The notes beneath the pieces are model-generated. The model saw only the letters and a program-made list of their open reading frames with translations. It did not search any database and was not told the DNA's origin. Source: Fibrobacter succinogenes (GTDB lineage Bacteria > Fibrobacterota > Fibrobacteria > Fibrobacterales > Fibrobacteraceae). Taken from it: a DNA stretch of 62,813 nt. The stretch spans positions 1 through 62,813 of the forward strand of contig CACXMH010000025.1 in the NCBI GenBank assembly GCA_902768715.1, in the 5' to 3' direction. Position numbers and translations under genes: made by a program. Shown here one piece after another: positions 2,757-7,521 of this stretch (position 1 is the first letter of the stretch; each line of letters begins with the position of its first letter).

Positions 2757-3100
2757 GAATATTTTGGGAATTATTTTCTGGCAAATTCTATATTCCCCAT
2801 CAGATGCTCACGGTCCTTAAATACATCGCCCTAGTCGGCACGTTCTTCATTTACACCACCTCGGGGGTGTTCTCGAAGCTTGCGTCGCAGCGGGAGTTCC
2901 TCTCGCCGGGGTACATCGCGTTCCTCGCCTGCACGGTGGGCGTGCTGGGAATCTACGCGGTGCTGTGGCAGCAGATTATCAAGCGGATGGACGTGAGCCT
3001 GGCCTACATGTTCAAGGGCACGGGCGTGGTGTTCGGGCTAATGCTTGCGCACTTCGTGTTTGGCGAGGCAATCACCACGACGAATATCGTCGGGGCGGGA
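2741..3100 (+). repeat. SMR direct repeat, copy A (360 bp)
   Basis: This stretch, from TGTCAAGTCTTTTCATGAAT through about codon 99 of the SMR gene, matches 5531-5889. By eye there are roughly 18 differences in the 297 coding bases, mostly synonymous. Upstream of 2741 and downstream of about 3100 the similarity ends abruptly. It is a direct repeat flanking inserted cassettes. Confidence 0.9.
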
Positions 3101-3112
3101 ACGACGAACTAG
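2804..3112 (+). pseudogene. SMR/EamA-type transporter, copy A, 3' end replaced
   Basis: It encodes 102 residues of a four-helix small multidrug resistance/EamA-like protein: TTSGVFSKLAS, GYIAFLACTVGVLGIYAV, SLAYMFKGTGVVFGLMLAH, FGEAITTTN. After IVGAG the frame switches to foreign sequence and stops two codons later, overlapping the stop of the oppositely oriented 3109-3333 gene. The last helix is therefore incomplete. TATATT at 2789-2794 lies 9 bases before the ATG, so transcription may still occur. The substrate is unknown. Confidence 0.75.
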
Positions 3113-3333
3113 CGGCCGCGAGCAAGTTCCTGGCGGTACTGTTCTTCTATAAACGCCGGACCATCCCACCAGAGTTTGCTGCTTTCGTTATAGAGCATTT
3201 GCCCCGTATGCGAGCGTAAAAAACTAGGCAAAACATCAGATGCGTCGCGACCATCCTCTTTTGCGATGCTTTCGACAACCATCACCGTAAGCAAATCGAT
3301 GGCGGCATTTATGCGGTTGGCCATTACATCCAT
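3109..3333 (-). CDS. Small protein of the DUF3791/DUF3990 module
   Basis: It encodes 74 residues (NRINAAIDLLTVMVVESIAKE ... LYNESSKLWWDGPAFIEEQYRQEL). It is translationally coupled to the DUF3990 gene: the DUF3990 stop TAA at 3326-3324 overlaps an internal ATG (TAATG, fourth codon), which may be the true start. Its end abuts the truncated SMR copy A. It resembles small helical partners found next to DUF3990 proteins, and I infer an accessory antitoxin-like role. The exact family was not identified. Confidence 0.6.
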   Translation of the reverse strand: MDVMANRINAAIDLLTVMVVESIAKEDGRDASDVLPSFLRSHTGQMLYNESSKLWWDGPAFIEEQYRQELARGR

Positions 3334-3887
3334 ACCCGTTCACTCCCCATAAATGACAACTGGTTCAATGCGGCAACAGACTTGAAGCAATACTGATTCT
3401 TCAACCGCTCCGGAAGCAGCAGCCGAATGCAGATATCGTCTGCAGAGGCGGAACCCACCTCGCCAAAAGCATTCGCCATGTAAGTCACAATCGTGCTGTT
3501 AGTCGCATCGTTTGCAATCTTGCCCCCAATAACATCATAATTAGAGCAATCTTCCAGGACCTCGCCAAAAACATCCTTCTTTCGATGAGCGACTACGCAA
3601 TGGAGCCAAGCGGAATCAGCGGCCTCATAGATTTTTATATTGAGCCTGGCATTGCCATTATACCGAAACGCCGAGACCACGCCGAATCTTTGACTTGCGA
3701 CAACACCATTTTCTACAGCCTTCTGCGTAGAAATCTTCGCAAAGGATTCAGCCTGTCCCTTGTCAGTCGTCAGATAAAAGCCTTGACCAAAGTCCTTATA
3801 CCGGGCACACTTCCGTAAATCGGGAGTCTGGACCGAGCAAAAACTACCATGGTACAAAATGTCGCCGTCTTTCAAAATATCAACCAC
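3324..3887 (-). CDS. DUF3990-family protein (ADP-ribosyltransferase-like fold, putative toxin)
   Basis: The pattern LYHGSFCSVQTPDL ... DFGQGFYLTTDKGQAESFA (residues 10-55) is the DUF3990 signature, related to the ADP-ribosyltransferase fold. I prefer the GTG at 3887 because AAGGAGG lies 6 bases before it; the ATG at 3905 is upstream of that site. The GTG overlaps the stop of the DUF3791 gene (GTGGTTGA), so the two are coupled. In sequenced genomes DUF3990 and DUF3791 commonly co-occur. The toxin role is inferred from fold and context. Confidence 0.75.
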   Translation of the reverse strand: MVDILKDGDILYHGSFCSVQTPDLRKCARYKDFGQGFYLTTDKGQAESFAKISTQKAVENGVVASQRFGVVSAFRYNGNARLNIKIYEAADSAWLHCVVAHRKKDVFGEVLEDCSNYDVIGGKIANDATNSTIVTYMANAFGEVGSASADDICIRLLLPERLKNQYCFKSVAALNQLSFMGSERVWM

Positions 3888-4114: not shown

Positions 4115-4466
4115 TATAAAAATGAACCTACACAGCGACCTTTAACTCTTTTCAATCATTTAAATGCACCACGCCATGTAAGACGGAACTTTCGTTACCA
4201 TTTTCAATAGTGCGCAAGGTATTCTTTGTAAAAAGCACCAATAATGCGCAAATTTCAACGTTTTCTAATCATTTTTTAGGCGTTTTTATGCATTTTCATA
4301 TTTTTGATGCGTTTGGCAATATTTTGTTGATGTGTTTGGCGTATTTTCGTCAACGCATTTGACCAAGCATCGCTTTTCCTTTCTATACATTTGAGCACTA
4401 TTGAATATAAATTCGCCGGAGGCATTTGTCAATACCTAAAAAAGAAAAATTTTACCCCTAATAACA
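4115..4466. other. AT-rich gene-free stretch
   Basis: I see no gene. Runs such as TTTTTAGGCG, TTTTTATGCA and repeated GCGTTTGGC/GCATTTGAC words occur. The right part (GCACTATTGAATATAAATTC, then TTGTCAA) resembles the promoter-bearing borders upstream of the other cassettes, but SMR copy B starts only at about 4467. Confidence 0.5.
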
Positions 4467-4617
4467 ATTCTATATTCCCCATCAGATGCTCACGGTCCTT
4501 AAATACATCGCCCTGGTCGGCACGTTCTTCATTTACACCACGTCGGGGGTGTTCTCGAAGCTGGCGTCGCGGTGGTACAAAATTACTTCACCATCGCGAG
4601 CACCTGTTCCTTGGTGA
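4467..4617 (+). pseudogene. SMR transporter remnant, copy B (first 28 codons)
   Basis: AATTCTATATTCCCCATCAG and 28 SMR codons from the ATG at 4486 match copies A and C up to TTCTCGAAGCTGGCGTCGC (about 4570). The sequence then becomes foreign, and the frame runs to a TGA at 4615-4617. The RhuM-like gene ends only 12 bases after the break, from the opposite direction. Confidence 0.85.
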
Positions 4618-5455
4618 CAAAATTCAGCACCGAGAACGCGGTCATCTGGTTTCCCAGTTCCTTGAACGACGCTCCCACGTGATAAACTACGTCGTCGACG
4701 ATGACAAAACGGTCGTGGACCTCGCGCATGTTCTCCAGACGAACCGTCGGGAATTGCCTATTCAAGCGGGTCTCTTCTTCTCTCATGGCATGGGTGATTC
4801 TGGCAGAATAGATGGTTGCGTTTACGCCTTCGGCACGCTTTGCCATAAGGGATAGCACCATGTCGTTGGCATATGGATCTATAATGACGAGTTCTTTTTT
4901 CGCGGAACGCACCAGCTGCACGGCAAACTCGTAACCGCTCCACTGCGAATGCGCGGGCAGCAGCCCCTCGCTTGGCGGCAAGTTCGCCTTCACGAAGAAA
5001 TCCACCTGCTTTTCGAGGTAAATGACCCGGGAATCAAGGTTTTCCAATCTGTTTTCGTGCGAAACGAGTCTTTGATTGACACTAAATCCCTTAAGCAAGT
5101 GCTCTTTTAGAACCTGGTTGGCCCAACGGCGAAATTGCGTTCCTTGATAGGATTTAACTCTATACCCGACAGAAATGATGACGTCTAGACTGAAAAGTTT
5201 GACCGGCTTATCCGAATTTGCAATTTGCAAAAAATGCAAATTGCTTTTCTCTTCCAGTTCGTGTTCTGCAAAAACATTGGCAATATGCCGTGAAATAACA
5301 GAAATGCTTTTAGAAAACAGTTCTGCCATCTGCGCCTGCGTGAGCCAGACGGTCTCGTTCTCTACCCGAACCTCGATGTGGAATTCCCCGCCCTCCGGCT
5401 GATAAACGATAATCTCGTTCTTTTCGGTAGCCGGTATCAACTCTTTTTCATCCAT
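4583..5455 (-). CDS. RhuM-like protein
   Basis: It is 290 residues from the ATG at 5455, which has a strong AAGGAGAG site; the upstream ATG at 5506 has none. The N-terminal 130 residues match the RhuM virulence family: VENETVWLTQAQMAELFSKS, SVISRHIANVFAEHELEE, VISVGYRVKSYQGTQFRRWAN. A coiled linker follows, and then a C-terminal region with VIIDPYAND and HDRFVIVDDVVYHVGASFKEL, resembling a phospholipase-D-like HxK/R-type fold. Such genes are common in islands near defence loci. The function is unknown. It sits alone between SMR copies B and C. Confidence 0.7.
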   Translation of the reverse strand: MDEKELIPATEKNEIIVYQPEGGEFHIEVRVENETVWLTQAQMAELFSKSISVISRHIANVFAEHELEEKSNLHFLQIANSDKPVKLFSLDVIISVGYRVKSYQGTQFRRWANQVLKEHLLKGFSVNQRLVSHENRLENLDSRVIYLEKQVDFFVKANLPPSEGLLPAHSQWSGYEFAVQLVRSAKKELVIIDPYANDMVLSLMAKRAEGVNATIYSARITHAMREEETRLNRQFPTVRLENMREVHDRFVIVDDVVYHVGASFKELGNQMTAFSVLNFVTKEQVLAMVK

Positions 5456-5470
5456 CTTGCTCTCCTTTTG

Positions 5471-5494
5471 CCGCAGACAAGCGTGAAACTGCGG
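5471..5494 (-). promoter_or_regulatory. Leader hairpin before the RhuM-like gene
   Basis: In mRNA sense a 24-base element starts CCGCAG and ends CTGCGG, giving a 6-bp stem. It sits 15 bases before the RhuM start codon. An element identical at about 20 of 24 positions lies upstream of AbiEi at 7424-7447, where the inner stem pair is A-U instead of G-C. Confidence 0.6.
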
Positions 5495-5507
5495 TGTATA
5501 CTGCACA

Positions 5508-5536
5508 AATATACACTAGCACAAGGGCGTTGTCAA
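5508..5536 (-). promoter_or_regulatory. Promoter of the RhuM-like gene
   Basis: On the minus strand, TTGACA (5536-5531), 17 bases, then TATATT (5513-5508). The -35 box is the last part of the duplicated SMR-upstream block, so the repeat supplies part of this cassette promoter. Confidence 0.65.
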
Positions 5537-5911
5537 GTCTTTTCATGAATATTTTGGGAATTTTTTTTTGCAAATTCTATATTCCCCGATAGATGCTCAC
5601 AGTCATTAAATACATCGCCCTGGTCGGCACATTCTTCATTTACACCACGTCGGGGGTGTTCTCGAAGCTCGCGTCGCAGCGGGAGTTTCTCTCGCCGGGG
5701 TACATCGCGTTCCTCGCCTGCACGGTGGGAGTGCTGGGAATCTACGCGGTGCTGTGGCAGCAGATTATCAAGCGGATGGACGTGAGCCTGGCCTATATGT
5801 TCAAGGGCACGGGCGTGGTGTTCGCGCTACTGCTCGCGCACTATGTGTTCGGCGAGGCAATCACCACGACGAACATGGTCGGGGCGGCAATCATCATCTG
5901 CGGCTTAACGG
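5531..5911 (+). repeat. SMR direct repeat, copy C
   Basis: This is the longest copy. It shares with copy A the block from TGTCAAGTCTTTTCATGAAT through ACGACGAACATGGTCGGGGC and continues to about codon 107. Recombination between copies A and C would delete both intervening cassettes. Confidence 0.9.
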
Positions 5912-5943
5912 TCAAACCCCCGCCAAATCCAGTATTTCTTTAG
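5593..5943 (+). CDS. SMR/EamA-type transporter, copy C (nearly complete)
   Basis: It encodes 116 residues with four predicted helices: IALVGTFFIYTTSG, YIAFLACTVGVLGIYAVLW, MFKGTGVVFALLLAHYVF, MVGAAIIICGL. It is the most complete of three copies, but the last codons (PPPNPVFL) overlap the end of the convergent AbiEii gene, so the native C-terminus was probably replaced. These proteins export small cations or metabolites as dimers. The substrate here is unknown. Confidence 0.75.
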   Translation: MLTVIKYIALVGTFFIYTTSGVFSKLASQREFLSPGYIAFLACTVGVLGIYAVLWQQIIKRMDVSLAYMFKGTGVVFALLLAHYVFGEAITTTNMVGAAIIICGLTVKPPPNPVFL

Positions 5944-6757
5944 CGCAGTCAAGAACCTGCGACAAAGTTATCCCTTTAGCAAACGGATTCTTGGCAACAA
6001 ATCTTCTCCAAAAATCATTCTGAACCAAATCCACTTTAATCGACTCTAAGATTTGTGGATATCCTTCTAGAATTTTGAACGTATTCCGCCGGTGAGAAGT
6101 CGCTTCAAGAGCAATCCTTAGTGTTTCGAAGTCTATTTCATCTTTCTTCAATGCATAAAGCATATACACATCGTAGAAATCTCTAGTTCGTGTATTAGCC
6201 GCACCTCTCGAAACAATTGTATCAAGTTTTTCCGCAAAAACATTCTCTAGCGGATAAGCCAAAACCGGAATCTCCTTATCGTCAAACACGCACTTATGCA
6301 TGTATTCTACTTCCCGGGGAATGATGGTATCTCCAGTTGTAAGGTCGACAGTCAAAGGAACTTTCATCTTTCCATAATGGCATTCAATAAAAACCCTGAG
6401 TCCTAGATAATCATCTTTTTCCCGAATCTCCTCAATCCGCTCGAACGAGAATGTCAGCTGATCGGCAATATCTATGCCGCAAATTTCCTTAAAAGCAGAA
6501 TCAACATTTTCATAGCTGACGCTAAACCCCTTTACTGTCGCATCAATGTCCATTGTTGAGCGGCTTCCGATTCCAAGAATAGATGCAATCAAGAACCCAC
6601 CCTTAATAACAAAATGGTCGCGAAAACGTGATACGGCAATTCTATCCAGCAAGCGTTCGAGGCAATACATTTGCAAGGTTGCTTGAGGCGTGATTCCAAA
6701 TTTTACAGACAGGCCCCTCAGTAATGCCTTTAGCTTCATCTCGTTATTCGTAATCAC
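5912..6757 (-). CDS. abiEii: AbiEii-family nucleotidyltransferase toxin
   Basis: It is 281 residues, starting at a GTG that overlaps the antitoxin stop (GTGA). FVIKGGFLIASILGIGSRSTMDIDAT (residues 48-73) is the nucleotidyltransferase core, with the GG...S and DxD elements. AEKLDTIVSRGAANTRTRDFYDVYML is the conserved AbiEii C-terminal motif. AbiE is a type IV toxin-antitoxin and abortive-infection system: AbiEii blocks growth and AbiEi represses the promoter. All key motifs look intact. Confidence 0.88.
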   Translation of the reverse strand: MITNNEMKLKALLRGLSVKFGITPQATLQMYCLERLLDRIAVSRFRDHFVIKGGFLIASILGIGSRSTMDIDATVKGFSVSYENVDSAFKEICGIDIADQLTFSFERIEEIREKDDYLGLRVFIECHYGKMKVPLTVDLTTGDTIIPREVEYMHKCVFDDKEIPVLAYPLENVFAEKLDTIVSRGAANTRTRDFYDVYMLYALKKDEIDFETLRIALEATSHRRNTFKILEGYPQILESIKVDLVQNDFWRRFVAKNPFAKGITLSQVLDCAKEILDLAGV

Positions 6758-7356
6758 AGCAACACCTCTAAATACGCTCTGAGTTTTTTTTCTACATGAA
6801 AAGTCTTTGCAAGTTGCATCAGTTTCGGAATATTCTTTTCTTTACGGCTGGCGTACGTTTTAATTGCATAGGTTATTGTCTGGATATCGGCCGCAACTTT
6901 GGCCGTCATGATTTCGCACAAGGTTCTTTCGGCAGAATAGGCATGCACAACATTACCTAAGGGCGTTTTGACCTCTACGATCTCAAGCGGATAAAGATTC
7001 TTCGATGAATGCTTTACCACAATTCCATTTTTTGCCAGAGAGGGCGAATGGTAGAACCCCTTAAACGTCATGGTCCACATAAACGGCGCGCGTTCTGTCA
7101 GAGAATGCAAGAACAAAGCCGTTTCGCACGAGAATACGCCCGTCGGGCAACGATGCTGCAAATTCAGGAGTTCGTCCTCTTGTGCCGTTTCCAACTGATA
7201 CACTCCGCGCGCAACCCTTACGATTTTCCCGGCATCGGAAAGCTGTTTCAGGATCATCCTGTGGATACCTGCAAGCGAAGCCTGCTTCGCAGTAATCCGC
7301 CCGCCCTTTTCCAAGAGAAGGTTCATTAGTGTCTTTTCTTTGTTATTGACAATCAT
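6754..7356 (-). CDS. abiEi: AbiEi-family antitoxin/repressor
   Basis: It is 200 residues from the ATG at 7356. The N-terminal winged helix (GGRITAKQASLAGIHRMILKQLSDAGKIVRVARGVYQL) is typical of AbiEi; the C-terminal domain includes SAERTLCEIMT and YASRKEKNIPKLMQLAK. A second possible start at 7410 has a good GGAGGAG site but would translate the operator. The start at 7356 is leaderless, with TTGACA-17-TATATT-7-ATG. AbiEi binds inverted repeats in its own promoter. Confidence 0.85.
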   Translation of the reverse strand: MIVNNKEKTLMNLLLEKGGRITAKQASLAGIHRMILKQLSDAGKIVRVARGVYQLETAQEDELLNLQHRCPTGVFSCETALFLHSLTERAPFMWTMTFKGFYHSPSLAKNGIVVKHSSKNLYPLEIVEVKTPLGNVVHAYSAERTLCEIMTAKVAADIQTITYAIKTYASRKEKNIPKLMQLAKTFHVEKKLRAYLEVLL

Positions 7357-7392
7357 ACTAACAAATATACAAGATATTAGTATAAATGTCAA
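7355..7392 (-). promoter_or_regulatory. AbiEi promoter with operator repeat
   Basis: Minus strand: -35 TTGACA at 7392-7387, a 17-base spacer, -10 TATATT at 7369-7364, ATG at 7356. Inverted arms ATACTAA (7355-7361) and TTAGTAT (7377-7383) straddle the -10 box, as expected for autorepression by AbiEi. Confidence 0.7.
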
Positions 7393-7423
7393 TATATTCA
7401 GGTTGTCCATCTTTCACTCCTCC

Positions 7424-7447
7424 CCGCAAACAGGCCTGAAATTGCGG
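7424..7447 (-). promoter_or_regulatory. Leader hairpin upstream of AbiEi
   Basis: In mRNA sense it begins CCGCAA and ends TTGCGG, extended by C/G pairs outside. It contains an inner CAGGCCTG palindrome and is followed by GGAGGAG and the ATG at 7410. It matches the hairpin before the RhuM-like gene. Confidence 0.6.
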
Positions 7448-7492
7448 GTCTTCAATTGTTTTTCGCGAGCAAAAGCTACTCACTTGTGCACT

Positions 7493-7521
7493 AATATAAA
7501 TTTTCAGGGTGTCACTGTCAA
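7493..7521 (-). promoter_or_regulatory. Upstream AbiEi promoter (P1)
   Basis: On the minus strand TTGACA (7521-7516), a 17-base spacer, then TATATT (7498-7493), the same layout as the RhuM promoter. It would drive a leader of about 80 bases carrying the hairpin. The remaining 7522-7658 contains only a (TA)n run at 7601-7613 upstream of pseB. Confidence 0.6.

Follow-up and report, generated by a model that had tools for sequence, protein, structure and literature searches.

Two leader hairpins before unrelated accessory genes

The window, that is, the whole stretch of 62,813 nucleotides of Fibrobacter succinogenes DNA analysed here (contig CACXMH010000025.1), carries two cassettes on its reverse strand, each headed by a promoter-like sequence, a short hairpin and a ribosome-binding site:

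4583-5455 (-): RhuM-family gene behind the hairpin (PF13310; PADLOC PDC-S05)
5462-5465 (-): Shine-Dalgarno sequence GGAG of the RhuM gene, read from the sequence; start ATG at 5455-5453
5471-5494 (-): leader hairpin of the RhuM-like gene, stem CCGCAG/CTGCGG, loop TTTCACGCTTGT (R2 32.0 bits, E 2.2e-6)
5508-5536 (-): promoter-like TTGACA-N17-TATATT of the RhuM cassette, read from the sequence; most copies have the same arrangement upstream
5912-6757 (-): AbiEii gene, coding for a nucleotidyltransferase toxin and second in the AbiE cassette (domain and PADLOC match)
6754-7410 (-): AbiEi gene behind the hairpin (PF13338, AbiEi_4; PADLOC AbiEi)
7417-7423 (-): Shine-Dalgarno sequence GGAGGAG of the AbiEi gene, read from the sequence; start ATG at 7410-7408
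7424-7447 (-): leader hairpin of the AbiEi gene, stem CCGCAA/TTGCGG, loop TTTCAGGCCTGT (R2 31.1 bits, E 4.1e-6)
7465-7483 (-): possible second leader hairpin GTGAG/CTCGC (centroid fold), which differs among leaders and is not uniformly conserved
7481-7492 (-): 5'-end motif AGTGCACAAGTG right after the -10 box, common to most TTGACA-type leaders
7493-7521 (-): promoter-like TTGACA-N17-TATATT of the AbiE cassette, read from the sequence

The two 24-mers, CCGCAGTTTCACGCTTGTCTGCGG at 5494-5471 (-) and CCGCAATTTCAGGCCTGTTTGCGG at 7447-7424 (-), are identical at 20 of 24 positions, in agreement with the match at about 20 positions claimed in the preliminary description of this DNA. Its other statements about the pair also hold: the inner stem pair is G-C in one copy and A-U in the other with pairing retained, a TTGACA-17-TATATT promoter lies upstream and a GGAG-type ribosome site downstream of both, and the genes behind them are unrelated (RhuM, PF13310, versus AbiEi_4 with AbiEii). 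The spacing from the -10 box to the hairpin is unequal, 13 nt in the RhuM copy versus 45 nt in the AbiEi copy. A degenerate-pattern search of the window returned exactly these two copies (0 expected, from 100 shuffles), and the covariance model built later recovered the same two and no others. The AGTGCACAAGTG motif has five copies in the window's own genome and none in the reversed control.

Elsewhere in the window, at 4391-4409 (-), a promoter with the start motif AGTGCTCAA stands without a hairpin; this motif occurs only five times in the genome, the other four at hairpin leaders. Between the accessory cassettes lie three partial copies of an EamA-like transporter gene (2804-3112, ~4466-4600 and 5593-5943, all on the forward strand) with their 5' ends and upstream DNA in common, as though duplicates of that gene had accompanied the cassettes on insertion or mediated their recombination.

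The hairpin family is specific to Fibrobacter and close relatives

Additional copies of unchanged layout occur in the same genome, and a pattern search of 111 genomes of the family gave strong matches with nearly empty reversed controls. A covariance model built from 36 hairpins found matches in 66 of the 80 genomes of Fibrobacter, a genus of common gut bacteria in grazing animals, at E <= 0.05, with up to 13 copies per genome; in the phylum-level search at E <= 0.001, 62 of the 80 genus genomes and five others were positive. Outside Fibrobacter, the model finds the hairpin in a few sister genera only. The preliminary description had proposed such a covariance search across Fibrobacterota as its check, and the outcome is clear: there are hundreds of copies, accessory genes follow nearly all of them, and covariation is far more extensive.

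When about 85,000 species were scanned for one form of the hairpin together with a ribosome site, 77 stretches came back, all but three from Fibrobacter or Fibrobacterales. The pattern matches in Neomarinimicrobiota and Oscillibacter are chance hits in which the leader is missing. The third exception, from Treponema, is a genuine Fibrobacter-type cassette on a short contig and is due to mis-binning or recent transfer; this 4.6-kb contig of a rumen Treponema bin holds a Fibrobacter leader and the beginning of its gene (L127, 1-330 (-)). A phage or viral origin was considered and dropped, with no match among viral contigs or phage records. No family in Rfam 15 matches the hairpin and literature searches found no description of the element. 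These hairpins make up a genuine new family of RNA elements, restricted to Fibrobacter and its close relatives.

A constant loop on a covarying stem

The loop is constant, UUU-NNN-GC-N-UGU over 11-12 nt (consensus TTTNNNGCNTGT), while the sequence of the stem is free to change provided that it pairs. The loop positions TT...GC.TGT were set by the search itself; the first T is usual there and the Ns are variable. In the loci that were examined closely (116 matches from 81 sources), the commonest stems are CCGCCT/AGGCGG, CCGCAA/TTGCGG, CCGCAG/CTGCGG and CTGCGG/CCGCAG. A search on the loop alone (129 matches, 0 with a reversed loop) retrieved stems unlike CCGC/GCGG, such as TGGCAT/ATGCCA, TGCGGA/TCCGCA, TCGTCT/AGACGA and CTGCGT/ACGCAG, and these divergent hairpins again have a promoter on one side and a ribosome site on the other. 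Genes of the ORF6N, KilA-N or Rpn type follow those with TGGCAT/ATGCCA, TCGTCT/AGACGA and CTGCGT/ACGCAG stems. This control bears on the idea that the hairpin is a passive insulator, which merely frees the ribosome site or protects the mRNA without any trans factor, its leaders having been spread by recombination as useful parts. The fixed distance to the ribosome site, the freely varying stem and the use with different promoters and genes would all suit an insulator, but it has no need of a constant eight-base loop signature over unrelated stems, and we consider it improbable.

Among 47 distinct hairpins, 98.2% of stem cells are paired and all six pairs show two-sided change, giving a covariation score of 0.807 against 0.260 +/- 0.027 in shuffles (0 of 500 reached it) and at most 0.30 in slid controls. 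Since the hairpins were partly gathered by pairing, the percent-paired figures are biased upward; the number of different pair types is not easily created by such a collection bias. When orthologous leaders are aligned between species, divergence is 3.3% in the stem, 5.5% in the loop, 18.2% in the adjoining spacer and 4.7% in coding sequence. Stem pair changes in near-identical orthologous leaders are two-sided in 14 cases and one-sided in 1, representing about three independent events, one of them in an AbiEi leader where CCGCAA/TTGCGG became CCGCCT/AGGCGG within surroundings that are 97% identical. Hairpin swapping, or palindrome correction during replication, could be the source of part of this compensatory change.

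Minimum free energy (MFE) folds of single leaders are no better than those of shuffles, and two of three leaders favour a different MFE fold. Two of these folds suggested a pseudoknot or ribosome-site switch, in which the loop contacts the start region; pairing permutations went against it throughout (p 0.14-0.85), and likewise gave no support for pairing of the loop with an upstream ACAAG motif. More generally, pairing of the loop with neighbouring leader sequence is not above chance and does not covary, hence the loop must either have its target in trans or act alone or passively. A 5'-terminal mini-hairpin, AGTG-NNC-AARY-GNN, was also rejected: its three pairs form in only 84% of cases, one of them failing about a third of the time, and it is retained as a motif of sequence and not of structure.

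Position, strand and promoters

A ribosome site and start codon follow 104 of 116 copies, and among the 85 genes that are at least 80 aa long, 74 have their ATG 11-14 nt from the hairpin end. About nine copies lie immediately 3' of a gene and are not followed by a ribosome site. Perfect pairing is found in only 4 of 9 hairpins with no ribosome site following, against 77 of 90 leaders (p = 0.009). The second genes of arrays have no promoter of their own, yet hairpin and ribosome site are kept. Imperfect stem pairs, read on the sense strand, are G-T in 16 cases and A-C in 2 (p = 0.001); because the non-Watson-Crick pairs are G-T and not A-C, we infer that the mRNA-sense strand is the one that folds. 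Part of this strand bias could reflect mutation bias, and the counts are small.

Two promoter classes drive the leaders, TTGACA/TATATT followed by AGTGCACAAGTG, and TGTCATAATATGACA/TATATT. In the second class, the palindrome TGTCATAATATGACA lies about 20 nt upstream of TATATT and resembles a repressor operator; its members include L049, L058, L060, L086, L098, L102, L104, L119, L123 and others. One leader (L118, ~2757-3860) is split by an insertion with inverted ends TTGGCTCTGTCAAG and GACAGAGCCAA and a target repeat ATTATT, and the sequence of its right-hand end also precedes hairpins in L016, L019, L023 and L060.

Genes behind the hairpin

At least 12 gene families are led by the hairpin, interchangeable accessory genes of defence or toxin-antitoxin type: ORF6N, RhuM, PDDEXK_2/Rpn nucleases, two AbiEi types, YhcG/DUF1016, RelB, DUF4160 (DhiT-like), KilA-N, an AAA ATPase, a RelE-like toxin and two families without a Pfam match. 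PADLOC assigns RhuM and ORF6N to PDC-S05, YhcG to PDC-S02, KilA-N to PDC-S22 and both AbiE proteins to AbiE; Rpn proteins are reported to be anti-phage toxin-antitoxin systems (PMC10327210). The same gene set returns behind the most divergent hairpins and in the sister genera. The hairpin is not a property of the ORF6N gene family: in six genomes only 13-14 of 22 ORF6N genes are preceded by one. A seeming exception to the gene set, starting MKKVIAAATS, proved to be an ORF6N gene too.

For the two unnamed families, Pfam, NCBIfam, PADLOC and PHROGs all lack a match. One (L069 3380-4045 (-) and relatives, WLDEIVPCLKDTETGEIKETVVFKIESRS...) is possibly GNAT-like; the other is represented by L089 3693-4016 (-) and relatives (MNTSQTRPENVILP...). 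In L046, L048, L050, L051, L057, L067 and L072, the leader and some ten codons of a gene are followed by one common small two-gene module with its own promoter (TTGACGGG..TATATTATAA), which by appearance only resembles a toxin-antitoxin pair.

This diversity speaks against a further explanation of the family, a single promoter-leader duplicated many times over with a functionless hairpin. The CCGCCT and CCGCAA types are indeed very common and nearly identical, but the copies span two or more promoter types and 12 or more gene families, all six stem pairs are compensated, and the spacer has diverged by 18% around a conserved hairpin; we find this explanation scarcely tenable. The preliminary description would have been refuted by a lack of further copies, or by copies amounting to one duplicated promoter without covariation, and neither is the case.

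Cassette exchange at the hairpin

Homology between loci begins at the 5' edge of the hairpin at 30 boundaries, where permutation predicts 6.7, and ends between hairpin and start codon at 23, where it predicts 7.2; the permutation is approximate because the loci were selected for having a hairpin. In L045 and L052, one cassette (98.9% identity) starts exactly at the hairpin in differing contexts. A single locus with a common right flank holds four cassette orders in six species (GNAT-like, MNTSQ plus GNAT-like, RhuM or MNTSQ), with junctions at hairpins, and gene tails stop at the hairpin regardless of the next gene. A site that is empty in genome G022 is filled in G020 by YhcG between two hairpins; the empty-site hairpin is a hybrid, with its first base from the left copy and its loop from the right copy; if a deletion created it, the crossover fell within its first 14 bases. 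Half hairpins are also found at junctions. As homology between loci breaks there, the hairpin also marks cassette boundaries.

One half hairpin, CCGCCTTTTTATGC, is joined to an identical right flank, TGTTTAAATC, in two species whose left cassettes differ (L052 ~5938 and L056 ~7557, oriented). The sequence GTAAGGAWTCCTTAC was tried as a cassette end signal and discarded, its 13 copies lying at inconsistent distances. A palindrome GTAAGGA(A/T)TCCTTAC, often CAGTATGTAAGGATTCCTTACTAAC, occurs 13 times across loci L044-L107, within cassette tails or close to them.

These exchanges sustain the main rival to an RNA leader, namely that the hairpin acts as single-stranded DNA and that some unidentified recombinase works on it to move hairpin-gene-tail cassettes in the manner of attC, with the start-codon position a by-product of the layout. 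Cassette exchange with junctions at the hairpin is what an integron-like system would require, and the clustering of homology at the hairpin edge, the reordered locus, the empty and filled sites and the half hairpins all favour it. As in integrons, genes are modular, point the same way behind a promoter, form arrays of one to three, include toxin-antitoxin-type cargo and are delimited by hairpins conserved in structure. However, the Fibrobacter hairpin stands at the 5' end of its gene whereas attC trails, and measures 24 bp against about 60-140 bp; its wobble bias points to folding of the sense strand, the opposite of the bottom strand folded in attC. Most cassettes moreover have one site only, with no trailing copy as in integron arrays, which makes excision impossible, copies away from genes degrade, and the integron integrase IntI (TIGR02249) is above its curated cut-off in 0 of 80 genus genomes. 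Nor is a special enzyme required: short-direct-repeat deletions in E. coli proceed without RecA (PMC5426353), and the shared segment of about 45 bp is sufficient for homologous or RecA-independent deletion. We hold a dedicated recombination site to be unlikely, though still deserving of attention.

Discussion

The preliminary description had suggested a common cassette-borne regulatory or recombination element, and both halves are supported: regulation by the fixed start-codon geometry, the stem covariation, the sense-strand G-U bias and the decay where no gene follows, recombination by homology that starts and stops at the hairpin and by the existence of empty and filled sites. The evidence leans towards the RNA leader as the primary function and recombination as its consequence. 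RNA is favoured by the position beside the ribosome site, by the G-T bias, by decay in the absence of a gene and by the hairpin kept in front of promoterless second genes. Against a leader count the roughly nine copies that lie 3' of genes and lack a ribosome site, for which a pure leader has no use (they are, however, more degraded), and the clustering of breakpoints at the hairpin edge, which is equally expected of a recombination site.

We consider it probable, with real room for doubt, that the hairpin is a new 5'-UTR RNA element whose loop is read by a trans factor, creating a post-transcriptional regulon, and whose repeats double as crossover points. Transcription would begin just upstream of the hairpin, and the leader would form a hairpin of 6-8 bp, free in stem sequence, carrying the fixed loop of 11-12 nt on top and finishing about 12 nt before the start codon, beside the ribosome-binding site. 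One genus-wide protein or RNA may then bind the loop and set the translation (or stability) of all these mRNAs; a trans-acting factor seems most likely because such factors read a loop that stays constant while its stem is arbitrary. All led mRNAs would form one post-transcriptional regulon, placing dangerous and often replaced genes under common control. Because the same block of about 45 bp (hairpin, ribosome site, start codon) precedes each gene, it could act as a crossover segment through which whole genes behind existing promoters are swapped, gained or lost. Our observations cover the structure and its covariation, the position, the gene set and the breakpoints; that the mRNA folds, that a trans factor exists, and the regulation and its direction are inferred, in the absence of expression, structure-probing or binding data and of a candidate factor. 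A more specific version, which is possible but which we regard as doubtful, is a genus-wide immunity RNA regulon. One factor would read the loop in front of dozens of unrelated, exchangeable genes against phages or of toxin-antitoxin type, any swapped-in gene would immediately be controlled, and a phage that disabled the factor might, for instance, release these genes.

Known systems include cis-acting RNA leaders whose loops are conserved, for example protein-bound hairpins such as CsrA/RsmA sites, and LoaP-type leader hairpins. The Fibrobacter hairpin resembles them in lying in the 5' UTR by the ribosome site, in its constant loop on a variable stem and in serving several transcripts, and it meets two expectations of a structured cis-regulatory RNA, compensatory changes beyond controls and a consistent 5' UTR position. 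Unlike CsrA/RsmA sites, its loop has no GGA motif, and unlike known RNA leaders it has no known binding protein and no Rfam match, and precedes interchangeable accessory genes of differing families in one genus and a few sister genera. REP/RAYT and IS200/IS605 hairpins are short dispersed palindromes with variable stems, as the Fibrobacter element is; in contrast to them, it is bound to a ribosome site and start codon, and no free intergenic repeats were seen outside cassettes. Mobile promoters are transferable expression modules before unrelated genes. The Fibrobacter leader shares this property, but its conserved part is an RNA hairpin combined with at least two promoters. We rate the element as belonging with cis-regulatory leader RNAs, unusual in being attached to exchangeable defence genes and in marking cassette boundaries.

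The combination of loop, stem and ribosome site provides a sequence handle for new defence genes in Fibrobacter, with two families that Pfam cannot name already behind it. If the recombination reading were true instead, Fibrobacter would have a cassette system delimited by hairpins and lacking an integron integrase. Accessory defence genes are toxic, and strains exchange them; how a host reins in those that it has just acquired has yet to be explained. A plug-in leader RNA, if true, would offer a simple solution: one factor for many unrelated genes, with a ready splice point for swaps.
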